From a virus: a stretch of DNA of 47,573 bases. The stretch spans positions 1 to 47,573 of IMG/VR virus record IMGVR_UViG_3300034061_003023. One strand, given 5' to 3'. A program made the position numbers and the translations under genes. Of the stretch, positions 23,392-47,418 are shown in pieces. Under the pieces are notes generated by a model, which was given only the letters and a program-made list of their open reading frames with translations, was not told the origin of the DNA and did no database searches. Positions within the stretch are counted from its first letter, which is position 1; each line of letters opens with the position of its first letter.

Positions 23392-24573
23392 TTATCTCGT
23401 AACCTTAAAGTAATAATTGTTATCAAATATTTGAATAGTATCTCCACCATTGGTTTCTATTTTTAACACAACTCTATAAAATCTTTCTGGTTGAAAAGAG
23501 TTCATCCACAAATTGAAATAATTACCCTTTTCGTCACAACTAATTTTTGTACCAACTGAATTAAATGGTAAAATTATTTCATCAGTATGTGCATCACGAA
23601 TTTCATAATATGATGATGATGGTAAGTAATAATTTTTTGTATAATAAGATTGTGTTGTATAATTTTTTTGTGGATAAAGTTCATTTGCATATATCCTTAT
23701 TTTTGCCTTTTCACTTTCGGAGTAAAATTTTTTAAGTTTTACATTTATATTTAAATTATTTTCCGAAATAACGGAAAGACTTCCCGTTTGAAAAGAAGAA
23801 TCATCCCAAACAACATGCAATTTTGGAACATATATGGTATTACTATCCGTTCCAAAAAATCTCAAACTCGTCAATCCTTCATTTAGTGATTCAATTTCAT
23901 TACTAAATTTTAATATCAAACCGTCATTTTCAAATCTACCGGAACCAGTTATCCATTTTTTTACAATATTTGTAACATCCATGTATACATCTGATGTCTG
24001 ATGGTTAAATGATTGAGTACATTCCAAATTATCATAGTCCCACCAAGTTCCACCACCTTCATTTGTAAAATAGGATGAAGTAACATCAGCTATTATATTT
24101 GATCCACCCCATGTATTATCGTTTTGAATCCATGTTTGTGATAAGTTATCCCATTCAAATGATGAAACGCCAGGTGGTACATCCCACATTACACCAACAT
24201 TTTTTGATGTTCTATAAGTCCAAGAAACACCATCTGTTGTTATAGGTTTGTTGTAAAATTTACCAGTACCATTTATCCAAGAAGAACTTATTGGATATGA
24301 ATAAATTGTATATTCTTGTGGTATCTCTTTAGCATCAACTGTCCTTAAAGACAAATAATATTTTGCATTTTGTGATATTTTTCCAGAATTTACCCTACTT
24401 TCAATATCAGACACGTCAAATTTCATTAAAATTCTACTGTTGTATATGTCTCCAGAACCAGAAGCACCTTGATATTCATGGGACAACTCTAATAGTTGAT
24501 CCAAACCGGTATTTTGTGTTTCGGTTTTTTCATATATTGTTGCATCTTTTTGAGCATAAATTGTATAAATCAT
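23392..24573 (-). CDS. Baseplate-region protein with DNRLRE/CBM96-like domain
   Basis: A 393-residue protein. The pattern of residues 1-265 is that of DNRLRE (CBM96-like) beta-sandwiches: ATIYEKTETQNTGLDQLLEL, then RILMKFDVSDI, a strand of YYLSLRTVDA type, YMDVTNIVKKWITGSGRFENDGLILK, and a closing RFFGTDSNTIYVPKLHVVW. These domains usually occur in secreted adhesins and fibres. The rest (~270-393) is a second beta-rich segment. It overlaps the gp6-like gene by ATGA and so is translated with the wedge proteins. A gp7- or gp8-like place in the wedge is possible, but no T4 wedge signature is visible. Confidence 0.7.
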   Translation of the reverse strand: MIYTIYAQKDATIYEKTETQNTGLDQLLELSHEYQGASGSGDIYNSRILMKFDVSDIESRVNSGKISQNAKYYLSLRTVDAKEIPQEYTIYSYPISSSWINGTGKFYNKPITTDGVSWTYRTSKNVGVMWDVPPGVSSFEWDNLSQTWIQNDNTWGGSNIIADVTSSYFTNEGGGTWWDYDNLECTQSFNHQTSDVYMDVTNIVKKWITGSGRFENDGLILKFSNEIESLNEGLTSLRFFGTDSNTIYVPKLHVVWDDSSFQTGSLSVISENNLNINVKLKKFYSESEKAKIRIYANELYPQKNYTTQSYYTKNYYLPSSSYYEIRDAHTDEIILPFNSVGTKISCDEKGNYFNLWMNSFQPERFYRVVLKIETNGGDTIQIFDNNYYFKVTR

Positions 24574-26462
24574 CCAAATGCCCTCACTCTACCGATAATA
24601 TCATTATCTGGAAATTTTATTTCAAAAATAGATGGATCAAGTGATGGAAAAATAATACCATCTTTTGTTGCTGCACCTATATCATACGCGTGTTGAGAGT
24701 AACCTAATGTTTGATCATATTTGTTAGTTATTTTTACGTTTACAACCGTCTGAACACCATCAACCCTATCTAATTCAGTAAATATATTACTTATCACTAT
24801 GGGTTGATTTATTTGCCAATTTTTTATATCAAAATATTTTTTTAGTCTATCAATACATTTTAATACAACCTGATTGCTATTTTGATCCGGCATAGTCATT
24901 ATATCAAATTCAACACCAATATTTACAATATAAGCATCTCTGATATTTATTGCGTCTGTAAGTATTCTATGATGATTTAAATATGTTTTTAGGTTTTCTT
25001 TTGTTGCATCATTTACAGTAGTCAATCTGTGGTTTGCATCATATCCTAAAATGTAGAAATTTAAAGCAAGTCCATTTTGAACTCTGTCACTATTGTAAAC
25101 GGATTCTCTAGTTAGTTGAGTATCTTTTGTTATGTATGCCTTTGCAATAGAACCATATCTGGGAGGCATACTGTATGAACGTATTATGTAATCTTCTTTT
25201 GTAACTGCACGATTTTGTGAAGCAAAATATGCCAAAGCATTTTCTCGTATTTCATTTACGGTTTCTTCTGTTTTTGCTCCAATCGCTGGCAATGGATTTG
25301 TTGTTGCAAGACTACTTACAACTTGTTGATATAATACAGAATCCAAACCAGTTTCATCCAACAATATTGTTTTATCAACTATTCTTGTTAAAACATCACT
25401 AACAACATTATCACTTATTCCATTTCCTGTTGTATAATATACTGTAAGTTCAGTGTTATTTGGTGCCAATCCATAAGTTTTTGTGTATAAAAAATTTGAT
25501 GGATCTATATTTAACGATGTTGAACTATCTATTCCAATCAAAGAATTACCAACTAAATCTGGATTTGGTATCAATTCTTCATCGTCTAAATTTGAGACTC
25601 CCGCTCCAAAATTTATTTCGTATCTAGTATCATCAACTTGTCTTGTAGAAAATCTTCTTGAAACTTTTCTTAATTTCATTAAATATGGGGTTTCGTCTCT
25701 ATATGTACTTAATTGTCTATCATTTCTTGGAATATTTAAAACGGGTTCAAATATAGTATCTTGTGCCAAAAATGGAACATGATACCATTTATTATTATCA
25801 GAATCAATTCCATATAATATTTCTATCAAATTTTCTTCATCCAATATCACACTGTCATACGGTTTTGGATCATTAAATCTATAAAGTTGTGTTTGTATTT
25901 TTCCAGAAACAGCCCTAACAGATTTTTTTAAAAGATAAAATAAAATTTCTCCGTTGTTGTCTATTTCAAATGGAGTAACTTCTGTTGGATCAAGTGAACT
26001 ACTGAATTTAAAATCAACATAATCAATTGTTCTAAATTCAATATTTGATTGAACATCAGATGTTGCAACAACCATATCAGGTTCTATGGCAAATGCATAA
26101 TTGTAATCTGGCACAATTTTACCAGAAATTTCAATAGATGGAACCAATTGAAAAACATCTAACATAACATTTGATGCAATCTTGTTTTTTGGTTTGTAAC
26201 CTAATGATTGTGCTATATTCAATATATTTGTTTTTTCAGTTGAATGTAATATCATTGATTCTTGTAAAGTAACATCCGTATAATATGATAATACATCCCC
26301 AACATATGCAGCCATTTCTAAAAACATCATTCCGGGTGATGATTCGTTAAAATCTTGATATGTATTGGGAAAATAATTTTTTGTAAAGTCAATTAGATTT
26401 TGTTTAAGTGATCCAAAATCCCTTGCCAAATAACGAATATCCTTTTTTACTAAATCAGCCAT
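24570..26462 (-). CDS. Baseplate wedge protein, gp6 / baseplate J-like
   Basis: A 630-residue protein with the N-terminus typical of T4-like gp6: DIRYLARDFGSLKQNLIDF, NESSPGMMFLEMAAYVGDVLSYYTD, NILNIAQSLGYKP. The C-terminal half has the baseplate J core: NEIRENALAYFASQNRAVTKEDY, MPPRYGSIAKAYI, and a final repeat starting IVNIGVEFDI. gp6 forms the iris-like ring of wedges around the hub and triggers sheath contraction. T4 gp6 is 660 residues, so the length agrees. The ATG overlaps the stop of the gp25-like gene by 8 bases with GAGG upstream, the same gene pair order as in T4. Confidence 0.92.
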   Translation of the reverse strand: MADLVKKDIRYLARDFGSLKQNLIDFTKNYFPNTYQDFNESSPGMMFLEMAAYVGDVLSYYTDVTLQESMILHSTEKTNILNIAQSLGYKPKNKIASNVMLDVFQLVPSIEISGKIVPDYNYAFAIEPDMVVATSDVQSNIEFRTIDYVDFKFSSSLDPTEVTPFEIDNNGEILFYLLKKSVRAVSGKIQTQLYRFNDPKPYDSVILDEENLIEILYGIDSDNNKWYHVPFLAQDTIFEPVLNIPRNDRQLSTYRDETPYLMKLRKVSRRFSTRQVDDTRYEINFGAGVSNLDDEELIPNPDLVGNSLIGIDSSTSLNIDPSNFLYTKTYGLAPNNTELTVYYTTGNGISDNVVSDVLTRIVDKTILLDETGLDSVLYQQVVSSLATTNPLPAIGAKTEETVNEIRENALAYFASQNRAVTKEDYIIRSYSMPPRYGSIAKAYITKDTQLTRESVYNSDRVQNGLALNFYILGYDANHRLTTVNDATKENLKTYLNHHRILTDAINIRDAYIVNIGVEFDIMTMPDQNSNQVVLKCIDRLKKYFDIKNWQINQPIVISNIFTELDRVDGVQTVVNVKITNKYDQTLGYSQHAYDIGAATKDGIIFPSLDPSIFEIKFPDNDIIGRVRAFG

Positions 26463-26946
26463 TATTCAATGCCTCTTTAATTCTTAAATTGCCCGTTTCA
26501 TCTATAAATATCTGTATGGGTAGATTTATATTGGTTTCAGTTAAATTAACCACTATCTCTATCCTTAAAGCATGATCACTATTTACACCTTGATCATCAG
26601 ATAAAAATATGTTTATTCTGACAACTTTTACATAAGGCATCCACTCTGAAATTGCAGAACTTATTTCCTTTTTTAAAGAATCAAAAAATTCTTCTTCCGT
26701 TGATATATTTTCAAATAAAACAATTCTTATATTAGTACCAAATGTTGGCAACATATACCTTTCACCTTTTGCAGTCAGTAAAAGGTTTCGTAGGTTTGAA
26801 TATACCTGGTCTTTACTTGTATACGATAGTTTAAATATACCATGTGGTTCATTGAATGGTATTAAAACGCCAATTGGTTTTACATACTTTTTTTGCTTTT
26901 CAATATCAACAGGTACAACTACTCGTTTTCTTCTAAAATAAGACAA
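26455..26946 (-). CDS. Baseplate wedge protein, gp25-like
   Basis: A 163-residue protein with the gp25/IraD/TssE fold signature: SNLRNLLLTAKGERYMLPTFG followed by IRIVLFENI, then the acidic helix SLKKEISSAISEWMPYVKV and a final strand DHALRIEIVVNLT. gp25 nucleates the wedge and starts sheath polymerisation. The N-terminal ~45 residues extend the usual T4 core (132 residues). The only start that includes the whole domain is TTG at 26946, preceded by GGGAG 7-8 bases upstream, overlapping nothing and 3 bases after the previous stop. A TTG start probably lowers its expression. Confidence 0.92.
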   Translation of the reverse strand: MSYFRRKRVVVPVDIEKQKKYVKPIGVLIPFNEPHGIFKLSYTSKDQVYSNLRNLLLTAKGERYMLPTFGTNIRIVLFENISTEEEFFDSLKKEISSAISEWMPYVKVVRINIFLSDDQGVNSDHALRIEIVVNLTETNINLPIQIFIDETGNLRIKEALNNG

Positions 26947-26949
26947 TGT

Positions 26950-27378
26950 TTATCTCCCTTTCTTTTCATCTATTTTTTTCATAAGAGCCGAATAATCTCT
27001 TGTTAAAGCAGACATAACTTCTGTTGGAATTTCTTGTTGTGAATAACCTTGTGGTATCACACTTGCACCTCGATCATATCCAAATCCCTCGGCCATATCT
27101 GCAGTAAAACGAAATTCATCTTCCATTTCATAACTTTCTTGAAGACTTCTTTTTGTTTCGGCAAGTAATTCTTGTATAGAACCAAATTCAGATTTTTGTT
27201 GTTTTGGTTTTACCACTTTTTTAGTAGTTTGAGACTCGTTATACATAGAAATGCCATGCTTTAAAGCACTAATATCATCTTTTTTTGTTTGTTTTTGAGA
27301 TAATTTTTTAGTAAGAGCATAATCAATTTCTTCTCTTATTATTGACCGTATTTCTTGTAAAAATTTTTTAGTGTCCAT
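26950..27378 (-). CDS. Small charged protein in the baseplate operon, unknown
   Basis: A 142-residue charged helical protein (IRSIIREEIDYALTKKL, EFGSIQELLAETKRSLQESY). No known domain, signal or membrane segment. It ends 3 bases before the gp25 TTG start and so is coupled to it. AGGA lies 9 bases before its ATG. A hub or wedge assembly role is suggested only by its position between the multi-enzyme tail protein and gp25. Confidence 0.7.
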   Translation of the reverse strand: MDTKKFLQEIRSIIREEIDYALTKKLSQKQTKKDDISALKHGISMYNESQTTKKVVKPKQQKSEFGSIQELLAETKRSLQESYEMEDEFRFTADMAEGFGYDRGASVIPQGYSQQEIPTEVMSALTRDYSALMKKIDEKKGR

Positions 27379-27436: not shown

Positions 27437-30400
27437 TTACCATGCAATAATATTGTTTATACCTCTGCCATCGTTTGGAAATATCATTTTATTATTTACA
27501 TATAAAAATGGTGAACCACCACCATCTAAAAATATAACATCTTTTAAATCACCGCCAGATTCATTGTTTCCATTGGCATATTTTAATATAGCATTTCTTG
27601 CTTGAATGGCAGTCTTTTTTTGAGCAGCATAAATAAATACAGATCCGTCATTGTAAATGCCGATTGCTACTCTTCCAGTTGGAGATTTTGGTCTACCACT
27701 ACCATTAAATACACTGGTTTCAGTTCTTGGTATTCCATTTTGTATACAAACTGGTTTACCAGCAACAACATACTTTGCATCAGAAGGAACTGCATTAGAC
27801 GCACCAATTGTTGCAACACCATTTTTTATCCAAAATGAAGTAGCAACACCTGCTCTTCCGGGTTTTACTCGCATATCAGAAAATATTTCATCTTTATATG
27901 GAGGAACTACTGAATCCTCTATAAAACCTCCAGTATCGTTACCATTAAAAAATGAACAGTTTATTGCATTTTTTTTACCATATTTTTCTTGCATTTCTTT
28001 TATCAAAACTGGAACTTTTGTAACAGTTGTTATACTTTTTGCATAAAATACAATATCTTGTGGATTTACTTTGAAAAACATATCACCATCAAATCCATCA
28101 GTTGCATCCGGATTAGGTTCAGGTTGGGGTTGTGGATTAACAATTACCGGTGCATTAACACCAAGTCCCAATCCATTTTGTAAAACAGATGGATATAAAA
28201 AGTATTTTTCTCCAGTATTTGCACGATGTCTTCCTAATTTTTGATTTTGAAACTTTCCGCTAGCAGCACCGTAACCTAATTGATAATATTTTGCTGCAGA
28301 CATTCCGAATGCATCTTTATTATTTGTTTTGCCACCACTTTTAAAATATTTTTGAGCTGCACCAAATCCTACTAAATGTGCTACTGCCAATAATCCAGCA
28401 AGTTCATTACATGGAATATTATCAAGAACACCCTTTTCTATTTTAGATCCAGCTTTATACAAATAATTGTAATTTATTTTAAGATATTCTTGCATTGCTA
28501 TTTCTTGAACAATTGGACAATCCATAAAATCTTGTCTAGACTTTATGCCTAACTTTCCCGTCCATGATGCAGGATTGTTTATATTACCACCTTTCTTTAA
28601 GAAACCAGTGTCAATTAAAGCAGCCTTTCCGAACTGATACCGTCCTGTAAAGTTTCCTCCCCCTCCTCCTTTTATGCTATAGATATTTGAACTTTCACTA
28701 CCAGCAAGTGCTGCCATCAAGTTTGCAATTTGAAGTGGTGTCAATCCTCCTTTACAATCAGTATTATCAATTTCACCTTCTACACCGGTTGCAGATATAC
28801 CTTGTATGTTTGTATCTGATTTTGTTAAATTATATTTTTGTCTTAATTGTTCACAGTTGTCAGTATTTACTTTATCCATTTCAGCTGATTCAACAATAAT
28901 ATCGGGTAAATATTCTGGTTCTTCTGTTGGAGATTCTTCTGAGGGGTTTGTTACCACATCACCAGTTGTTCCAGCAAAACAATCAGATTCACCGAATACA
29001 ATATATGGCATCAATTTTTTATAGTATTCGTCATTTATCTTTTCACGAGAAGTTGTTGATTCCACTTTACCAATATATTGATTAAAAATACTATCCGTAT
29101 TTACTACCAATTTTTGATCAAGTCCATTTCCACTTCTAAAAAAATCTAACGCTGGAGTTGATTTTGTTCTTGCAACAATAATTGATGCATTAACACCAAA
29201 CGTTTCAAGATTAGGTATAAATTTAGAAAAATTTGTAACTTTAACGGCTATATGATTTCCAGATTTAATCGAAGAATTTGCTCCAGGAACATTTGTATTA
29301 CCACCTAATGTTACTATTGTTCCATCTTCATCCATATACAATAATACATCTGTAAAACATTGTGAAGAATTTACTGTTGAATGTGGAACTGCAGATATAG
29401 TTGCCATGTCCCATCTTAACCCTTTGTTTATATGATTTACTAACTTTTTACCACGGTCTGTTAGTGTTCCATTTCTATTTATATGATAACCAATTACAAA
29501 AATTGCTATAGAAGATTTTTCATCATTTTCAAAATATTCTTCCTCACTCAAATATTTTGGTTCTAACCATATTTTACTTGGTTTAAATATTTTATTATGA
29601 GTTCCTAATGTTTTCATTTCTTTCCATGGCATTTTTTTATTACCAGGATGATTTACCAATCTATCACGCGATAATATAGATCTATGGTAAAAATCTATAT
29701 TCAATCCTAAATCTTCTTGTAATGTAAATCCTGAATTTCTCAGACAATGTGATGCAAATATTCCAGACCATCTTGGATAATTTGCCCAAGATGAATCTTG
29801 TACTTTTTTAAGTGCATCACTATCATTTAAACCTTGGCCAATGGCAAGTTTTCCCTTATTTATTATTTCTGATTCTAATATGGTCATGTGTAATTCATTT
29901 TCCGCCTCGTATATGTATTCTATATTATCATTAAAAACACCAACTTGATATGCATTTAATAAAATAGGAACATCTATCGGAGACTGAATTGTATCGTAAC
30001 CCTCGATTAGTTTATTCCATTCTCCTTTTACTTTTGCATCATCTTTTGGATTTTTTTCATCAAATGGTGGTTTCCAATACGGAATAACTGCAGTTATCAA
30101 TTCAATTCCATTGTCAGAAATTGTTGTTTCGTATTTCTCAAAACCATAATTTGGACCAGAATTTAATCTATATGCCCAATATCTATTATACCAAGGTCCA
30201 GATTTTTCAACCATTTTTTGCAATTCAGCTGGATTACTTGGCGGTGTTTCAAATGCTGCATCACGAAGGCCTATCGTTGGTTTAATATAAAACCTATGAT
30301 TATATTTATTTGAAGTAAATTGCGGTTTTTCATTTTTTGAAGGTGGTGGTGTATCTTTTTTTATTTCACCCGCATCCTTTGGATCACTTTGTGATTTAAA

Positions 30401-31240
30401 AACTGCATTATTTTTTTCTTCCACATTACATTTTTCAGCTGCACCAGTTTCAGAACCTTTTGGTATACCTTCCTCTACTTTCGTTTCATCTACCTTTTGT
30501 TCTTTTTTCGTTTTAACTTTTTCTCTTGCTTGTTTTTTAGTAGTTGGTATGTTTATTTTTGATGTTCCGTCTGGAGAAACAATTACATTTGCATTCAACC
30601 AATCCGCAGCAGCATTAACTGATTTCATATGATTTGATGTGTCATGTTCATATGTATTTCCCGATGGTATTCTGCGTTCAAGTTTTTTTTGAATGGACAA
30701 TAACTGATGATCACCGTTGATGAGTGGATCTGAGTCTTTTACACCGCCCGCATGAATATAAACAAATCTTGATGATTTTGGTTTTGTTATATTGCCATCT
30801 TCATATTCTGTTAATTTATCTATCATTTTTATTTGATCAGTATATGTTGATCCCTGTTTCATCATATACGCACCTGCACTAATAACTAAATCCCATTGTC
30901 CACCATCTTGACCGGTAACTAATGGTTCTATATGAGCAGCACCGAGAGAAAAACCAACTAATATAAATTTTGAAGGAGTGATACCTTGTGATTTTAATAT
31001 ACTTTTACATTCCCCCCAAGCGTCTAAAACATTTGTATCTTGTTTGCCATATTCTGAAAAATCAGTTTGTGCAATATTGTAAATATTGAATTGTTTTAAG
31101 TTACCGAATCCACGTTTTAGCATATATTCTGCAGGTTGTCCTTCTTTCGTCCTTTTCATTCCACCAGCAATAAATACAAGTGGTGCAAGTGGTGAATTAG
31201 CTGCTGGTATAAATTCTCCCAATTTTCCTTTTATTGACAT
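27437..31240 (-). CDS. Multi-enzyme baseplate/tail protein (esterase-, CHAP/DUF2272-, lysozyme- and NAGPA-like domains)
   Basis: A 1267-residue modular protein. Residues ~18-220: alpha/beta hydrolase with nucleophile elbow GFSLG (Ser98), a possible acid in GGVKDSDP (~169) and His204 in TSNHM. Residues ~235-305: charged linker. Residues ~470-690: a domain with WANYPRWSGIFASHCLRNSGF (Cys499) and later AVPHSTVNSSQCFTDVLLYMDEDG, reminiscent of CHAP/DUF2272 cysteine hydrolases (tentative). Residues ~835-1010: transglycosylase/lysozyme-like, LMAALAGSESSN (Glu849) then GRYQFGKAALIDTGF, with His/Gly-rich helices. Residues ~1055-1267: phosphodiester glycosidase (NAGPA-like), NCSFFNG, GRVAIGIYNDGS, LDGGGSPFLY (1238-1247) and terminal INNIIAW. 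It lies beside CHAP and hub proteins, so it probably opens the host envelope during penetration. Confidence 0.82.
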   Translation of the reverse strand: MSIKGKLGEFIPAANSPLAPLVFIAGGMKRTKEGQPAEYMLKRGFGNLKQFNIYNIAQTDFSEYGKQDTNVLDAWGECKSILKSQGITPSKFILVGFSLGAAHIEPLVTGQDGGQWDLVISAGAYMMKQGSTYTDQIKMIDKLTEYEDGNITKPKSSRFVYIHAGGVKDSDPLINGDHQLLSIQKKLERRIPSGNTYEHDTSNHMKSVNAAADWLNANVIVSPDGTSKINIPTTKKQAREKVKTKKEQKVDETKVEEGIPKGSETGAAEKCNVEEKNNAVFKSQSDPKDAGEIKKDTPPPSKNEKPQFTSNKYNHRFYIKPTIGLRDAAFETPPSNPAELQKMVEKSGPWYNRYWAYRLNSGPNYGFEKYETTISDNGIELITAVIPYWKPPFDEKNPKDDAKVKGEWNKLIEGYDTIQSPIDVPILLNAYQVGVFNDNIEYIYEAENELHMTILESEIINKGKLAIGQGLNDSDALKKVQDSSWANYPRWSGIFASHCLRNSGFTLQEDLGLNIDFYHRSILSRDRLVNHPGNKKMPWKEMKTLGTHNKIFKPSKIWLEPKYLSEEEYFENDEKSSIAIFVIGYHINRNGTLTDRGKKLVNHINKGLRWDMATISAVPHSTVNSSQCFTDVLLYMDEDGTIVTLGGNTNVPGANSSIKSGNHIAVKVTNFSKFIPNLETFGVNASIIVARTKSTPALDFFRSGNGLDQKLVVNTDSIFNQYIGKVESTTSREKINDEYYKKLMPYIVFGESDCFAGTTGDVVTNPSEESPTEEPEYLPDIIVESAEMDKVNTDNCEQLRQKYNLTKSDTNIQGISATGVEGEIDNTDCKGGLTPLQIANLMAALAGSESSNIYSIKGGGGGNFTGRYQFGKAALIDTGFLKKGGNINNPASWTGKLGIKSRQDFMDCPIVQEIAMQEYLKINYNYLYKAGSKIEKGVLDNIPCNELAGLLAVAHLVGFGAAQKYFKSGGKTNNKDAFGMSAAKYYQLGYGAASGKFQNQKLGRHRANTGEKYFLYPSVLQNGLGLGVNAPVIVNPQPQPEPNPDATDGFDGDMFFKVNPQDIVFYAKSITTVTKVPVLIKEMQEKYGKKNAINCSFFNGNDTGGFIEDSVVPPYKDEIFSDMRVKPGRAGVATSFWIKNGVATIGASNAVPSDAKYVVAGKPVCIQNGIPRTETSVFNGSGRPKSPTGRVAIGIYNDGSVFIYAAQKKTAIQARNAILKYANGNNESGGDLKDVIFLDGGGSPFLYVNNKMIFPNDGRGINNIIAW

Positions 31241-31255
31241 TTTTTCTTCCTATTA

Positions 31256-33070
31256 TTATCTAACAGCACTACTATTAGCAGTTCCTTTACTTCCTTCTGG
31301 ATTGTAAAATCCATCCAATAAACTATAAATTTCCGGTAAAGGATTTCCTTCTCTAGATGGTTTACCTTTAATATCTAAAAGTTCTGTATCTGTTGCGGGG
31401 TTTAAGAAAATCCAGTGCCATTGACTATCAGTTGGATAAGGAAACGGAATTTTTACGCCACCCCATTTGTTCTTATCTCTTTCATAATGACAGTGGCCAA
31501 CTGGTAATAATCTACCTCTTTTAATTTGATCTGCAGTGCAACTTTTAAATGATGGTAAACTTGCTTTTGATCCAAGACCAAAAATTTTACTTTTAACATA
31601 ATCTTCATCATGTGAAATTCTCCATGCATCTTGATAATAATTATCTCTAGGCCAAACTCTTAGGGATAAGTCTTGACCACCATTTCCTTCAATTGTAATA
31701 ATAGATCCATCTTTTGTTTTATCCACAACTATTCCAGTGTGACCACAATCACTACCTGCTCCGTCATTATTTATTTTCCAAAAAAGTGCACCTGGAGTTG
31801 GTTCCCATGATAATTTGTAATCAAAATATTTACTATTATTAGCAATACAAAGAGCAGAATTGTTGTCCTTTTTAAATGGTATTTGTATTTTTTTATTTTC
31901 AAATGGAGACCATATTTCAGATCCGTTATTTGATTGTTTTTTACTATCTTTATGACTTGCTCTCATCTGTAACATTGCATACATATAAATTACAGATGCA
32001 GTAACTGCACACCAAGCCCATGTATTTGCCACCCTAAATTCAGGATTTTTTTGATTAGAATTATGGTAAAACATAAATAATCTATCCAAAGGTAACATAC
32101 CTTTGTGATTAAATCTACCAAATATTGGATCATTAGGGTAAGTATATGAATTATAAAAACTTTTTTTGGTGTCATCAGATTTTACGTCATAATAATCCCA
32201 TCTACTTTTTTTCTTTGTTGATGAGTTAATATCAGTTGTTGGTTGCCATTTTAACATATCTAATGCAACCCAAAGCACTTCTTTTTGAAAATCATTTAGA
32301 CTATTTAAGTTTGGACTAGGACAAGTTGCTGATTTATCGGGTATTATTATTTCACTTTTTTGTGCATTTGGATCCTCACCGATTAAAACATTTTCTTTTG
32401 TCCCTTCTTTATTTTCTTCTTGCTGTTGTTTTGTATCCGGTTTGTTATCCTTTGTGCAATGTTCAGTTTTTGTATCTGCATTTCCATTGTTTCCATTTTT
32501 ATTTACAACAGGATCAGCTGGATTTTCTTTTGGATTATCTGGAATAGATTCTCTTTTATTTTCTTCACCCTTTTTTACATCAGATGTATCTACACCTTGT
32601 TTTAACAGTTCTTCTTCTTTTTTTGAATCTATTTGTGATTGATTGAACCCTTCAATTTTTTCCTGGTCTTTTTTGGCTTCTTGTTCATTGATATTTTCGT
32701 TCTCTTTTGGAGGATCCTTTGGTTTATCCGATTCATTGTCTGCACCTTCTACTTCTTCTGTAAATGGATCATCATCTTTTCCACCACCACTTGTTTCAAC
32801 TGTTTCTGCTGTTTTACTTCCATCAGTAGATGATGTTGTAGTTGTTGTTTTTGTGCCATTTGGTGTATTTTGAACTTCAACAGAAGTTTGATTCTGACGA
32901 TTTGCTGTTGCATTTTTTTTAGCTTCATCTTCTTGTTTTTTTTCTTCAATTGCACGTTTATTAGAATTTAATGTAGTTTCGCGCAATCGTCTAACTCTTT
33001 CTTTTTTAATTTTTTCATAGTCTTCTTCTTCATCTATATTTTCAATACCGGTAATAACAATTCCAGCCAT
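31256..33070 (-). CDS. CHAP-type amidase/peptidase on a long charged N-terminal stalk
   Basis: A 604-residue protein. The first ~245 residues are low-complexity and charged (KKQEDEAKKN, TTTTTSSTDG, DPPKENENINEQE), likely a flexible tether. Residues ~260-490 form the catalytic part: WAWCAVTASVIY with candidate nucleophile Cys354, EPTPGALFWKI, and CGHTGIVVDKTKDGSIITIEGNGG with His444 and a third polar residue Glu461 or Asn463. This order fits CHAP amidases and endopeptidases that cut peptidoglycan peptides. GGAG precedes the ATG by 8 bases. It sits between the LRR hub protein and the multi-enzyme protein, in the region of the T4 gp5 lysozyme, so a tail-borne muralytic role is likely. Confidence 0.82.
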   Translation of the reverse strand: MAGIVITGIENIDEEEDYEKIKKERVRRLRETTLNSNKRAIEEKKQEDEAKKNATANRQNQTSVEVQNTPNGTKTTTTTSSTDGSKTAETVETSGGGKDDDPFTEEVEGADNESDKPKDPPKENENINEQEAKKDQEKIEGFNQSQIDSKKEEELLKQGVDTSDVKKGEENKRESIPDNPKENPADPVVNKNGNNGNADTKTEHCTKDNKPDTKQQQEENKEGTKENVLIGEDPNAQKSEIIIPDKSATCPSPNLNSLNDFQKEVLWVALDMLKWQPTTDINSSTKKKSRWDYYDVKSDDTKKSFYNSYTYPNDPIFGRFNHKGMLPLDRLFMFYHNSNQKNPEFRVANTWAWCAVTASVIYMYAMLQMRASHKDSKKQSNNGSEIWSPFENKKIQIPFKKDNNSALCIANNSKYFDYKLSWEPTPGALFWKINNDGAGSDCGHTGIVVDKTKDGSIITIEGNGGQDLSLRVWPRDNYYQDAWRISHDEDYVKSKIFGLGSKASLPSFKSCTADQIKRGRLLPVGHCHYERDKNKWGGVKIPFPYPTDSQWHWIFLNPATDTELLDIKGKPSREGNPLPEIYSLLDGFYNPEGSKGTANSSAVR

Positions 33071-33086
33071 TTTTTACTCCAAATAA

Positions 33087-35663
33087 TTAAGCAACAACTT
33101 TAGTTGAATCGTTTAACAAAAGTTTTTTACGAATGATTGAAACATCAAGTTTAAATTCATTCAATTGATTGTTAATAATCAATGATGCATTTGAATATAA
33201 TTTAGGTAATATACCACCACCATCAACTTCAAATGAATTATGAGTTATGTAATTTTTACTTAAATCAAATTCACCATAAATGTCTATGTTTGAGTCCATA
33301 CTGTTAATTAAATTATTTGAAAAATTACCATTTCCGGTAATTAGTAGATTTTCTTGTTTGCCTCCGCCGGAATATAAATTTGTCAATTTGTTATTTGAAA
33401 TATTCAAATTTTTTACCGTATAAATTCCTTTTAATGATTCAATAACGTTATTCATAGCATAATATGTTCCATATACATATTCAGGTCCACCAAAAAGATT
33501 TTTTAAAGAATTATTAGAACAATCAAAATCTCCAGTTACGGTAGTCGGTGCATTATTGAGTGAAGATAAACCCATATTCTTACAAATAAAATTACCCAAT
33601 ACTTTTTCAAATTTTATTGGTATTTTTGTTAATTGATTTCCGTTTTCATCTTTTTTATCGGAAAGTATAACATTACCATTGTAGATAAAAGGTTCCATTA
33701 TTTTTCCAGTAGAATCTTTTTGGAATAAACTCATATCTAAACCCAAATATGCAGGAATTTTTTCATTGGTTTGTGGTGTTTGGTTATCAATTTTACTACT
33801 ATCAATTTCTTTTTTAATATCATCGGATGTTGTAATTGATTGAGTTTCGTATTCAAATCTTTCTTTGTCATCATTCAAATTTTTAATCGAATATGCCATA
33901 TCTATTGCAGATTGATATTGTTGATCCGTTATATTATGTTGTTCTTTGTAAGTGGGAAGTGTATCGTTATTATTTTCTTGTTGTTTATTTAAGGTTTCAA
34001 CATGACTTAATAAAGTTTCCTTTAGAGAATTTGATAATTCATCGAGTCTTCTGTATTCTTTTATTTTATTCAAAACTTCTTTTAGTTTACCAACACCCCC
34101 AACATCATCACTAAATCCCATAGATTCTGCTGCAACTTTTTGTACCCTATAATCTAATTTGTCAAAATTTTCAATAAATTCTGTATTATTGTTTGCTCCA
34201 TTAAGAGTTTGGTCTGTTGATGGTTGGTCTGATTCTGATTTGTAATCTAATATTGGTTTTAATGGATCTCTGCCTTTCTTTTTTGCCTCTGCATCCATAC
34301 TTTCAATCCATTTTTTTAAGCCTTTTCCAAAACTATCGTCTTCATTATCATTGATATAGTTTTCATACAATAGTTGAATCCATGTTGTATTTGGATAAAA
34401 ATTACCAGTAAAATAAATTTCTCGTATACTATATGGGACACCATTATGTATAACAACTCCATCTTTACTTATAGTTAATGTTTTATCTGGTGTGGATCTA
34501 TCGTCACCTAGAGTTCCTTTTGGTGTATAAACCTCTGGAGATTTTTTTAAGTTACCATTCTTATCAAATAAAGTATCTGTATTATCTGATAATATAAATA
34601 AAGGTAATTTTTCAACTTGTTTTGATGCAGTAACACCTTCAACAGGATTAACTTGTGTTGGTATTGTTACTTTATCCGTATCTGGACCACCAAGTCCAAA
34701 TAATTTTGCAAATTGTGGTTGCAAAGATTTTGCATATTCACGTGACTTTTCTGCTTTATCTTTATCAAATGAATTTAAATCAACAGAAACATTCATAACA
34801 TCTGTTAGCATTTGAGTATTTGGTAAAAAATTATTTTGTGCAATTTTATCTTTTACATTTTGATCCAAATTTGAAAATTGTTCCATACTTTTTATATCCG
34901 CTAATATCTTAACAGAATTTTGAGATGAAAACATATTTTGCAATTCAGTTGGATTTAAATTCAATGATTTACCAATGTTATCTAAAAGATCCGTATTTAA
35001 TAAATCTCCAGTTAAACCTTTTTCCGTTACCTTATCCAATAATGTTTTTTTAATATTTGTTGTATTACTCAAATCAACATTAGATAGAGAAATATCACCC
35101 ATTATATTAGACAATGATGATAATTTATTCGTATCAATACCTAATGATGAAGCAAATGTTGATAGTTTTACATCACCTAAATCTGATAATGAAAAGTTTT
35201 TTGATTTTTCTTTTACATCCTTTACTACGGAAGTTGTATTTTCTATGTTGCTTTGAACTTTTTCTTTTTCTTTTGTTAATGTAGATCCAGTTATACCCTT
35301 AAACATAGAGGTAATATTATTATTTTCTGAATTTTTTGTTTCAGTATCGCCTTTATCATCATCATTATTACCACCATCGGTTGATGGACAAACTTCATCT
35401 CCAATATATTTTTCATCCTTTAAGTATCTTGCAGTTTGTTGTGAATAATTCCAATTTATTGAAGAACAAAATTCAGATCCAAGTGTTATGACTCTTGCAT
35501 TCTTTCTATATTTTGCTGCATCTTCTGTTGAATTGGGATCGTTTGGACATTCAATAAATTCATATGTTTTTGGTAATTTTATACCACTTTCTTCTATATT
35601 CTCAATACATTTTGGGAATATAAAATCATTTGCGGTTATCGTGTATGTAGACTTTCCTGCCAT
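33087..35663 (-). CDS. Hub-region structural protein with C-terminal leucine-rich repeats
   Basis: An 858-residue protein. Residues ~85-330 are Ser/Leu/Asp-rich helices (SLSDLGDVKLSTFASSLG) and ~560-640 is probably coiled coil. Residues ~685-825 are irregular leucine-rich repeats of the phage type: IPIKFEKVLGNFICKNMG, LSSLNNAPTTVTGDFDCSNNSLKNLFGGPEYV and LNISNNKLTNLYSGG. Almost the same IPIKF..V.NFIC..MGL(S/T)SLNNAP block is in the next-door gp5-like protein, so the two share a mobile cap. No catalytic motif is seen. A place in the hub, possibly as the gp27- or tape-proximal component, is inferred only from order. Confidence 0.75.
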   Translation of the reverse strand: MAGKSTYTITANDFIFPKCIENIEESGIKLPKTYEFIECPNDPNSTEDAAKYRKNARVITLGSEFCSSINWNYSQQTARYLKDEKYIGDEVCPSTDGGNNDDDKGDTETKNSENNNITSMFKGITGSTLTKEKEKVQSNIENTTSVVKDVKEKSKNFSLSDLGDVKLSTFASSLGIDTNKLSSLSNIMGDISLSNVDLSNTTNIKKTLLDKVTEKGLTGDLLNTDLLDNIGKSLNLNPTELQNMFSSQNSVKILADIKSMEQFSNLDQNVKDKIAQNNFLPNTQMLTDVMNVSVDLNSFDKDKAEKSREYAKSLQPQFAKLFGLGGPDTDKVTIPTQVNPVEGVTASKQVEKLPLFILSDNTDTLFDKNGNLKKSPEVYTPKGTLGDDRSTPDKTLTISKDGVVIHNGVPYSIREIYFTGNFYPNTTWIQLLYENYINDNEDDSFGKGLKKWIESMDAEAKKKGRDPLKPILDYKSESDQPSTDQTLNGANNNTEFIENFDKLDYRVQKVAAESMGFSDDVGGVGKLKEVLNKIKEYRRLDELSNSLKETLLSHVETLNKQQENNNDTLPTYKEQHNITDQQYQSAIDMAYSIKNLNDDKERFEYETQSITTSDDIKKEIDSSKIDNQTPQTNEKIPAYLGLDMSLFQKDSTGKIMEPFIYNGNVILSDKKDENGNQLTKIPIKFEKVLGNFICKNMGLSSLNNAPTTVTGDFDCSNNSLKNLFGGPEYVYGTYYAMNNVIESLKGIYTVKNLNISNNKLTNLYSGGGKQENLLITGNGNFSNNLINSMDSNIDIYGEFDLSKNYITHNSFEVDGGGILPKLYSNASLIINNQLNEFKLDVSIIRKKLLLNDSTKVVA

Positions 35664-35702: not shown

Positions 35703-37961
35703 TTATTTTTTTGAACTTCCTTCTGGAAACACTCGTAATGATTTATCAGGAGAACCATCCCAATTTTGTTTAATCCATTTCTCAAGATCATCTGTAACTA
35801 GTTGTTTGCTTGAAACTTGATTATCAAGATATACCGATTTTGTGATCAATAAACTAGGTGTATCTTTTTTCAAAAATACACTTGTTAGATTACAACCACT
35901 TGCATATAATATTTGTATTGGTTTACCAGCTGGCAATCCACGAAGTGTAAGCAAACCTTTGTTTCCATCAACTCTATAAATTTTAGTACCATTTTTAGGA
36001 CCACCAACAAGATTCTTCAAGTTATTGCCTTCTGCTGAAAATTCTTCTGTAACAATAACTGGTCCACCTTCTAAACTCGTTAATCCACAATAATCAACTT
36101 TATATCTTACTGCAGTTTCTGGTCCACCTTCTAATGTTTTTATATTATTTGCAGAAGCATCAAATGTATTCACTTCATATGGTGCATTGTTCAAACTTGT
36201 CAATCCCATAGCGGAACATATAAAATTACTTACACTACCGAACTTTATTGGAATTTCTTTCAATTTACCAACACCTGGAATATCAACATTCGTTAAGTTT
36301 ATATCACCAGCATAGTTGAAGAAACCACCACCATCTATATCAACCGCATTTAAGTCAGTTATACCCAATTGTGCAAATGTTATACCATTTGGATATTTTA
36401 CATTTTTTGTATTTGGAATAATACTATTTAGGGTTTCATCACCTGTTTGAACTTCTTCTGATGATGAGTCATCTGAAGACACTTCATTTGTATCTAGTGT
36501 TTTACCAACTGATAGTGAATCATTTTCTAATTCTTCTAATATCTTTTGTTTTTGTTTTTCTATTTCATCCAATTTTGATGCTAACGTAACAACATTTGTT
36601 GGTTCTACAATAGTTTTTTCTGATTGAGGAATTATATCAGCAGTGGACATTAAATCAGCTTCGGATGGCATTGGATTAACATACCCTTCACCATTTTTAT
36701 TTTTTTCTTTGGCTTCTGCAGCCGCATCTGATTTTGGTCCGCCAGCTTTTTCATTAACAAAAACTAAATCGCTTGGTAACTTTTTTATTTTAGAACGCAA
36801 ACTTTTTATTTTACCTTGTAATGATGTAAATGCACCGGCATTTATTGGTGGACCAGTAGGACCAGTATTTGAAGTATGAGTCTGTTGAGCAATATGTCCT
36901 AATGCAGAATATACCAAATCACACAATTCTGCTAACCAATTCATAGTTACATCCCCAAGAAGAACAGGATGAACTGCATTTACTCCAATATTTATCCTAG
37001 ACGATTCAAGTTCTACAACGTCTTTTCCATCAATCGCAATTCCTTTCATTGATGATAAACCTATACCTTCTGCAGAATATAACGAGGTTTCTTGTTTCTT
37101 TGAATTTAATACAATTCTATCGGATGAAATCAATATTTGATTTCCAGAAAAATTATTTTTATTATACAAATCTACATTTCTATTTTGTATAGATGGAACG
37201 AATGTACTCGATGGTGTAAATTTTACTGTCTGTCCAGATGTCATCCATATTGTAGAATCATCTTTATCGATTTCCTCTTGAACGAAATCGTTAAATGGTT
37301 TTTCTGTTGGATTTGTCCCATTTGATATTATCAATATTGGATTACCAACTGCACCCAATCCCGCTTTCCATGCAGGTTTAACAGGATAATTCCTACGATC
37401 ATCTATTGTTGATCCCAATCTTATTGAATTTCCAAATCTACCCTCAAGTATAACATCACCGGGATATGGTTGTATTGGGTATACATCCAATCGTTCACCA
37501 AATCTTGGATCTATAGTTTCTTTTACTGTTAATCTGTTTTCTACTTTATTCCAAACCCCATCTCTCGATGATTGTCTTGCATCAGAATTATTAGTTGATT
37601 GACCGTTATTAAGAAATCCTGTTACACCCGGAATACCGTTGTGATGAATAGAACTCTGAATGGCGATGGGATTGGAATAGTAATATTCTCTTCCTGACCT
37701 ACCTGCACTATTATACGCAGTTGGACCTTTCGTAATAAAAACAACTTCACCTTTTATTGGCAAATTTTTTAAATTAGAGTCCATTGGTCTAGCGTTAATT
37801 ACATCACCAGTCGCCTGTGCTCCAAATGGATTTAAAATTTTACATGATACGGAATATAACTTTTCTCTGTTATTACCAAAGTAATCAACTTCTACTACTT
37901 CAGCAGCAACATATTCATATTCAAAACCATCAATTATTATTTTTTGATTGTTGAGCGCCAA
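35703..37961 (-). CDS. gp5-like baseplate hub/spike protein with leucine-rich repeat C-terminus
   Basis: A 752-residue protein. The N-terminal ~350 residues resemble the gp5-type hub of T4-like cyanophages: an OB-fold start (AEVVEVDYFGNNREKLYSV), IKGEVVFITKGPTA, YPGDVILEGRFGNSIRLGS, then a beta-helix-like segment ISSDRIVLNSKKQ, GIAIDGKDVVEL. No lysozyme domain is visible, so lysis is presumably delegated to neighbours. Residues ~560-700 are leucine-rich repeats (FICSAMGLTSLNNAP, NIKTLEGGPE, CGLTSLEGGP, NNLKNLVGGP). The start is TTG at 37961, with AGGA upstream and 32 bases inside the previous gene. No ATG gives the full domain. Confidence 0.82.
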   Translation of the reverse strand: MALNNQKIIIDGFEYEYVAAEVVEVDYFGNNREKLYSVSCKILNPFGAQATGDVINARPMDSNLKNLPIKGEVVFITKGPTAYNSAGRSGREYYYSNPIAIQSSIHHNGIPGVTGFLNNGQSTNNSDARQSSRDGVWNKVENRLTVKETIDPRFGERLDVYPIQPYPGDVILEGRFGNSIRLGSTIDDRRNYPVKPAWKAGLGAVGNPILIISNGTNPTEKPFNDFVQEEIDKDDSTIWMTSGQTVKFTPSSTFVPSIQNRNVDLYNKNNFSGNQILISSDRIVLNSKKQETSLYSAEGIGLSSMKGIAIDGKDVVELESSRINIGVNAVHPVLLGDVTMNWLAELCDLVYSALGHIAQQTHTSNTGPTGPPINAGAFTSLQGKIKSLRSKIKKLPSDLVFVNEKAGGPKSDAAAEAKEKNKNGEGYVNPMPSEADLMSTADIIPQSEKTIVEPTNVVTLASKLDEIEKQKQKILEELENDSLSVGKTLDTNEVSSDDSSSEEVQTGDETLNSIIPNTKNVKYPNGITFAQLGITDLNAVDIDGGGFFNYAGDINLTNVDIPGVGKLKEIPIKFGSVSNFICSAMGLTSLNNAPYEVNTFDASANNIKTLEGGPETAVRYKVDYCGLTSLEGGPVIVTEEFSAEGNNLKNLVGGPKNGTKIYRVDGNKGLLTLRGLPAGKPIQILYASGCNLTSVFLKKDTPSLLITKSVYLDNQVSSKQLVTDDLEKWIKQNWDGSPDKSLRVFPEGSSKK

Positions 37962-39419: not shown

Positions 39420-40079
39420 TCATCCTCTATTATGTTTTGGTGGAATTATTAGATCAATAACGCCAAGGTTTATAGCATCTTTGGGTGTAATGTAATAATC
39501 TTTTATTGTAACATTTTTCCAAAATTCTATATCTTTGTTTGAATTTAATTTGAGTATTTCCAGAAGTATTTCTTCTAATTTTTCCATATGTTGAACATTT
39601 GCTTTCATATCAGAAGATTTACCGTATATGTCAGAACTAATCTCATGGAACATTATAGTAGAGTATTGTGAAGCGGCACGAACACCTGTTCCTGCACAAA
39701 GAATAAGAGCAGCAGCAGACATAGCCCTACCTCTACAAATTGTATTAACCTTTACATCAAGACTTTGAATATAATCGATGATACCAAGTGCCTCATATAC
39801 AGAACCACCATCGGAATTGATAATGAGATTGATTGGATCGTTTTTATTTTCATCTTTTCTCATATGAAGAATTGCTCTAATACGAGTGATAATATCATAT
39901 AAGGAACCATCCATTATTTCACCGAATAACAAAACGGAAGATGCTTCAACATCAATTCCGTAATCCATTTGTGTTGTTGCTTCTTTCCATCTAACTGGAA
40001 TATCATTTTCGTTTTCTTTTGATTTATTGTTAGTTGTTTCTTTTTCAACAACTTCTTCGCCATCATAAAAATCGTTCAT
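39420..40079 (-). CDS. ClpP-like serine protease
   Basis: A 219-residue ClpP/crotonase-fold protease. The catalytic triad is complete: Ser121 in GRAMSAAAL, His145 in IMFHEIS and Asp194 in IKDYYIT, with the oxyanion strand INSDGGSVYEAL (~88-97) and the ending DAINLGVIDLII. The first ~30 residues are acidic and disordered. AGGAG lies 8 bases before the ATG. In some phages ClpP-like enzymes act as prohead proteases, but the capsid genes are not in this window and the neighbours are a membrane protein and the late sigma factor. It could equally assemble with host ClpX or ClpA and change host proteolysis. The fold call is strong; the target is unknown. Confidence 0.9.
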   Translation of the reverse strand: MNDFYDGEEVVEKETTNNKSKENENDIPVRWKEATTQMDYGIDVEASSVLLFGEIMDGSLYDIITRIRAILHMRKDENKNDPINLIINSDGGSVYEALGIIDYIQSLDVKVNTICRGRAMSAAALILCAGTGVRAASQYSTIMFHEISSDIYGKSSDMKANVQHMEKLEEILLEILKLNSNKDIEFWKNVTIKDYYITPKDAINLGVIDLIIPPKHNRG

Positions 40080-46717: not shown

Positions 46718-47371
46718 TTACCAAGCAAGAACATTTGGATATTTTCTCATTTTTTTAATTGGCATTTGAACATAATCATATTTGTTACCACGATATAGAA
46801 ATGTTGAACCTCCACCATCCATGTTAATTGCATCTGTGCAACCCAATGCCAACAATCTATTGGGTAAGTCCACTACTCTGATTCCATCATTTATGTAGAT
46901 AAATACACTATCCTTATTATGACTGCCAAACACAGTTCTCGGCCGTCTGGCAGTTGTAAATGAGTTACGATGTATCTTTTGTGGTATGCTGTCTTTAAGA
47001 AGTAATGGCGTTCCTGCAAAGATGTATTTTGACCATATCGCTGGCACCTCACCTTGACCGCTGAAGTTTAAGTGTGGTGTTAGATTCGGTACACCCCATT
47101 CGTGTGGATCATCAATGGAAACAAATGGCCAGTTATGTGGATTATTGGGATAAATCTTATCGTGATTCTTAAATGGTGGAACAACCGCTTTAGTTGTGAA
47201 GAATGAAAGATTAACCATATTCCTCAATTTATATTTTACAGAATACCAACTTGGGTGGCGTAGTGTATCTGACGAAAATATATGAACATCTTTGACTGCC
47301 AACTTTATCACCCATTCCTTCCCCCAAAGCATCGGTGATACTAATAGTAATAATAAAATAAATCGTTTCAT
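46718..47371 (-). CDS. Secreted phosphodiester glycosidase (NAGPA-like domain)
   Basis: A 217-residue protein with a signal peptide (KRFILLLLLVSPMLWG, ~2-17). The domain has TARRPRTVFGSHNKDSVFIY (~140-160), the hallmark DGGGSTFLY (~193-201) and a terminal PNVLAW. The same landmarks, including INNIIAW at the very end, close the 1267-residue tail protein. The family (NAGPA, DUF2233) removes terminal sugars joined by phosphodiester bonds; bacterial members act on envelope or exopolysaccharide. TTG at 47374 is in frame, but the ATG at 47371 with AAGGG 8 bases upstream is better. It is the first minus-strand gene after the strand switch. Confidence 0.85.
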   Translation of the reverse strand: MKRFILLLLLVSPMLWGKEWVIKLAVKDVHIFSSDTLRHPSWYSVKYKLRNMVNLSFFTTKAVVPPFKNHDKIYPNNPHNWPFVSIDDPHEWGVPNLTPHLNFSGQGEVPAIWSKYIFAGTPLLLKDSIPQKIHRNSFTTARRPRTVFGSHNKDSVFIYINDGIRVVDLPNRLLALGCTDAINMDGGGSTFLYRGNKYDYVQMPIKKMRKYPNVLAW

Positions 47372-47418
47372 CAAATCCCTTCAAATAAATAATTAGTAAA
47401 AAAAATTTCAAAAAGTGC

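Follow-up and report, generated by a model that had tools for sequence, protein, structure and literature searches.

Three probable envelope-cutting domains and a probable pseudoenzyme on one protein encoded beside phage baseplate genes

Introduction

According to a 2017 review, the number of lytic domains in a virion-associated lysin is one or, as the upper limit, two; the lysins with two such domains all come from phages of Gram-positive hosts, and in one of them, Gp44, a peptidase is joined to an SGNH hydrolase (PMC5380687). Among prophages of Curtobacterium, predicted depolymerases include NAGPA-like and esterase-like proteins (PMC9862828). In the open-access literature searched, no report was found of a combination of hydrolase, lysozyme, NAGPA and CHAP-like domains, nor of NAGPA domains, by that name, on phage tails.

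The stretch of DNA analysed here (the window) is a 47,573-base IMG/VR fragment of an uncultured phage (IMGVR_UViG_3300034061_003023). A single open reading frame on its minus strand (positions 27,437-31,240) encodes a multidomain protein of 1267 residues (P0001), which a preliminary description had read as a baseplate protein with up to four envelope-degrading domains, a combination that it called unusual and took as a possible sign of a host with a complex surface layer; set against the one or two lytic domains per lysin of the 2017 review, the word ‘unusual’ is fair. The description was largely right, with one enzyme too many: the alpha/beta hydrolase, the tail lysozyme or transglycosylase-like domain and the NAGPA (phosphodiester glycosidase) domain hold up, whereas the central domain has lost its catalytic Cys and His. 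The reading favoured here, with a probability of roughly 70%, is that this gene, lying in a domain-shuffled slot, specifies an envelope-penetration protein associated with the baseplate or hub, with three enzymes and one pseudoenzyme.

Domain architecture of the protein

The motifs that drew attention to the gene are all located as first described, namely GFSLG at residue 96 (with Ser98), His204, Glu849 and LDGGGS (with Asp1239). The copy of the gene on contig L002 is 100% identical in DNA, and the order of the four domains recurs in L003, L004 and L009, as well as in L101 minus its 5′ part. Because the same order is found on these other contigs, the four-domain fusion is no accident of assembly, and an artefact of this kind can be set aside. 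Three of the four domains are supported as probable enzymes by profile or fold evidence together with conserved catalytic residues.

The first of these (residues 1-232; 30,545-31,240, minus strand) gave no useful match in sequence searches of Pfam and PDB, and relatives were found neither in isolated phages at E <= 0.01 nor in the bacterial genomes searched. Its AF2 model, built with nine homologues, reaches a pLDDT of 85.2 and a pTM of 0.88, and a fold search with this model returned 629 PDB chains at E < 1e-3, headed by esterases, lipases and other alpha/beta hydrolases. Ser98 follows directly after a strand (residues 92-97) in the model, and Ser98, Gly100 and His204 are invariant in the nine aligned sequences, including homologues that are only about 26-31% identical. 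The conservation of Ser98 and His204, which had been put forward as a check, thus bears out the predicted alpha/beta hydrolase. The candidate for the acid of the triad is Asp177, a position occupied by Asp or Glu in most rows of the alignment, if not in every row.

The tail lysozyme or transglycosylase-like domain (residues 795-1030; 28,151-28,858, minus strand) matches the profile phrog_27932, ‘baseplate hub subunit and tail lysozyme’, over residues 823-998 with an E-value of 1e-22. In an alignment of 10 sequences around Glu849, including phages of Rhizobium, Agrobacterium, Pantoea and Pseudoalteromonas, Glu849, Gly866, Tyr868, Gln869 and Gln912 are invariant. The persistence of Glu849 across unrelated phages, along with the profile match, upholds the proposed transglycosylase-like domain with this residue as its putative catalytic centre.

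The NAGPA domain closes the protein (residues 1050-1267; 27,440-28,093, minus strand). PF09992 matches residues 1092-1265 with an E-value of 1.4e-6 (29 bits, the Pfam cut-off being 25), and is matched by all five members of the NAGPA alignment A5. The domain has the N-x-x-N-x-S motif (Asn1091, Asn1094), Arg1190 before the G motif, and DGGGS (Asp1239 to Ser1243), and these motifs align to those of solved NAGPA structures. Across 12 NAGPA copies, Asn1091, Asn1094, Ser1096, Asp1239, Gly1241 and Ser1243 are invariant, so that the NAGPA-like assignment made from the LDGGGS motif is confirmed by a score above the cut-off and by the conservation of Asp1239, Gly1241 and Ser1243 in the loop.

NAGPA domains also occur as free-standing genes. 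L003, L004, L009 and L101 have an additional copy shortly downstream of the fusion gene, and the fused domain of the window is 36-37% identical to these free-standing copies versus 28-29% to the fused copies of the same contigs. In the fused domains of L003, L004, L009 and L101, Trp takes the place of the R-x-x-x-G Arg, a residue that the adjoining free-standing copies retain; this suggests that one of the two duplicates may be decaying. The window itself has a second, free-standing NAGPA gene (46,718-47,374, minus strand; PF09992 E 5.1e-14), whose product is about 31% identical to a NAGPA protein of Microcystis phage Mel-JY01.

This additional gene, together with the depolymerases predicted in Curtobacterium (PMC9862828), could be taken to mean that the hydrolase and NAGPA domains process a receptor or capsule on tail fibres instead of helping to penetrate the wall. 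Such a role is improbable as an alternative, given that both domains are fused to a tail-lysozyme domain and adjoin baseplate genes; it is nevertheless compatible with envelope penetration, and the two need not exclude each other.

A central domain without its catalytic residues

The central domain (residues 338-750; 28,991-30,229, minus strand) had been described as a CHAP- or DUF2272-like segment with Cys499 as its catalytic residue. Pfam and PDB sequence searches with it gave no useful match, and the likeness to DUF2272 has to be abandoned, as PF10030 gives no hit in the whole window even at E <= 10. The likeness to CHAP stands as a matter of sequence pattern: it consists of a Cys/His/GGN pattern, one weak, sub-threshold match of Pfam CHAP to the homologue L117 (E 1.8e-4, along its His/GGN segment) and a profile comparison of low probability (37%). 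The structure was modelled with moderate confidence (pLDDT 71), and a fold search with the model returned nothing significant (best PDB E-value 0.011; none below 1e-3 in BFVD). Searches for relatives gave chance-level matches in isolated phages and none in bacterial genomes.

Scans of the collection yielded 13 stand-alone homologues, several of which are near-duplicates, and alignment with these puts the nucleophile column at residue 492 (codon 29,765-29,767, minus strand). This column holds Cys in 12 of the 13 homologues, whereas the window protein has Ser, and all 11 sequences of its clade have Ser or Asp (three of the 11 come from contigs beginning within the gene, where the fusion state is not readable). 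The catalytic His column, at residue 629, is occupied by His in 13 of 13 homologues and by Phe in the window protein; the GGN motif (Asn648) is common to all sequences of the alignment. Cys499 (codon 29,744-29,746, minus strand) is rejected as the nucleophile by this alignment, because Cys-bearing homologues have Leu, Met, Ile or Val in its column. The 11 sequences without the catalytic Cys make up one side of a single tree branch (support 100/99), a distribution that fits one event of loss.

Of all parts of the protein, the central domain nevertheless varies least and is under the tightest constraint. Identity between the window and L003 is 72-79% in this domain, but falls to 48% in both the hydrolase and the lysozyme domain and to 29% in NAGPA; dN/dS between L003 and L004 is 0.088 for the central domain and 0.183, 0.234 and 0.314 for the other three. 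Stronger constraint on a seemingly non-catalytic domain than on the active domains around it most likely points to a pseudoenzyme retained for structure or binding.

The same purifying selection, the strongest of the four domains, might be invoked for a protein with four active enzymes, in which the central domain would work as a Cys peptidase or amidase through Cys499, possibly in a relocated dyad with His620. Both residues occur in all 11 clade sequences and in none of the Cys-bearing sisters; however, the clade has 55 invariant positions out of 266, which makes this pair unremarkable, and Cys499 lies seven residues beyond the nucleophile column, within a helix (segment H164-175 of the model). 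Four working enzymes are accordingly an unlikely state of affairs.

With both catalytic residues of the central domain lost, peptide cleavage by the 1267-residue protein is not supported, and of the ester, peptide, glycan and sugar-phosphate cutting once attributed to this protein and its neighbour together, the peptide part could come from the CHAP domain of the neighbour.

Gene neighbourhood and variation of the slot

All genes of the window described here lie on the minus strand. Downstream of the 1267-residue gene, in the sense of transcription, are a 142-residue gene (26,950-27,378; counterparts in Mel-JY01 at E 2e-5 and in L003, L004 and L017), a gp25-like baseplate wedge subunit (26,455-26,946; phrog_261, phrog_43) and a gp6-like baseplate wedge subunit (24,570-26,462; phrog_219, E 3.7e-21), the last being 72% identical to its counterpart in Mel-JY01 and 41% to that of Flavobacterium phage immuto. 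Upstream are (i) a neighbour of 604 residues (31,256-33,070) with a CHAP domain, (ii) an 858-residue gene (33,087-35,663) without any relevant match in Pfam or phrog profile searches and (iii) a hub-like gene (35,703-37,961), which is 54% identical over 442 residues to the equally placed gene of Mel-JY01 and matches a ‘baseplate protein’ profile weakly (E 0.038). The CHAP domain claimed for the neighbour is well founded, with PF05257 matching at E 1.6e-5 (0.3 bits below the Pfam cut-off) and with the canonical Trp353-Cys354 and His444, followed by Glu461-Gly-Asn463.

The C-termini of the hub-like and 858-residue proteins resemble leucine-rich repeats, as is also seen in L025 and L028, and a slot protein of L028 weakly matches LRR_4. 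A ClpP-like protein encoded a few genes upstream of the slot (39,420-40,079) matches head maturation proteases (phrog_94, E 1.5e-34). Mel-JY01 (PP395634.1) has Microcystis elabens as its annotated host, yet Flavobacterium phages are among its gp6 relatives.

The one line of evidence behind the name ‘baseplate protein’ is the position of the gene in this neighbourhood, from which presence of the product in the virion is likewise predicted.

The interval between the hub-like gene and the 142-residue gene (which gp25 and gp6 follow) can be regarded as a slot, the contents of which vary among relatives. It holds hydrolase and lysozyme-like, NAGPA and VanY domains in L017; hydrolase and VanY, as well as Phage_lysozyme2, in L029; M15 in L024 (with GH19 weak); VanY in L089; and in Mel-JY01 one protein of GH19 type, with matches among endolysin and chitinase families. 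In L019 and L025 the hydrolase and the CHAP-like pseudoenzyme are followed by a C-terminal part that is M15-like by eye only, Pfam giving no match, and in many more distant gp6 relatives the slot holds little or nothing. Since relatives differ in their enzyme sets (GH19, M15, lysozyme, CHAP-like, NAGPA), the slot is, judged from these predicted contents, a cassette of envelope hydrolases that is reshuffled among phages and that, in one lineage, includes a conserved pseudoenzyme. Collagen-like or Gly-rich repeats are present within the slot proteins of L117 (4426-7176), L025 and L019, and L117 matches Pfam Collagen.

A part in lysis, with the protein as an endolysin-like enzyme and not an entry protein, is doubtful: some of its domains also match endolysin families (phrog_26675) and its virion location is a prediction from gene position, but the strong match to a family annotated as baseplate hub and tail lysozyme and the placement between the hub-like gene and gp25/gp6, which is kept in relatives, both argue against it.

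Proposed role

From the computed domain identities, the conservation and loss of residues, the confinement of that loss to a single clade and the variability of the slot, we infer a location in the virion, substrates, an order of action and a role for the pseudoenzyme. The phage would be a large T4-like myophage, and the envelope-penetration protein would have been assembled via domain shuffling between the hub-like gene and gp25/gp6. Its alpha/beta hydrolase would probably strip ester-linked groups, the Glu849 domain may cleave the glycan strand of peptidoglycan, and the NAGPA domain would cleave the sugar-1-phosphate diester of a surface polymer. A scaffold or wall-binding module would be the most likely role of the central CHAP-like domain, with peptide cleavage presumably supplied by the neighbouring CHAP gene. 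A more tentative suggestion, held at somewhat less than even odds, is that Cys and His were lost in connection with the fusion to the alpha/beta hydrolase, and that a former tail amidase or peptidase thereby became a conserved docking platform for interchangeable envelope-cutting domains.

With three probable lytic domains on a single chain, the protein would go beyond the two known from virion-associated lysins, and its central domain would clearly exemplify a strongly constrained phage pseudoenzyme. The natural variation of the slot may reveal which cutting domains can substitute for one another, and the isolated domains are candidate enzymes against bacterial envelopes.

Comparison with known systems

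The Glu849 domain is homologous to the hub and tail lysozyme of the Pootjesviridae (Sinorhizobium phage phiM9, Rhizobium phage RL2RES and Agrobacterium phage OLIVR5; phrog_27932), with which it shares the invariant residues; there, however, the protein has 858-862 residues and is annotated as a gp5-like hub and tail lysozyme, and the isolated-phage search gave no alpha/beta hydrolase, CHAP-like or NAGPA match in these phages. With the NAGPA or uncovering enzyme family (PF09992), the C-terminal domain has the motifs and an above-threshold score in common, whereas here it is a module at the end of a phage protein. The baseplate region of Mel-JY01 has the same gene order, and its hub-like and gp6 proteins show the identities given above, but its slot is filled by the single GH19-type protein and its NAGPA gene is elsewhere in the genome. 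Finally, Gp44 and Gp49 of phi11, Gp61 of phiMR11, HydH5 and CwlP of SP-beta are, like the protein described here, modular with more than one envelope-cutting domain, and are tail-associated; they have at most two lytic domains, whereas the window protein has three probable ones, NAGPA among them, and a pseudoenzyme.
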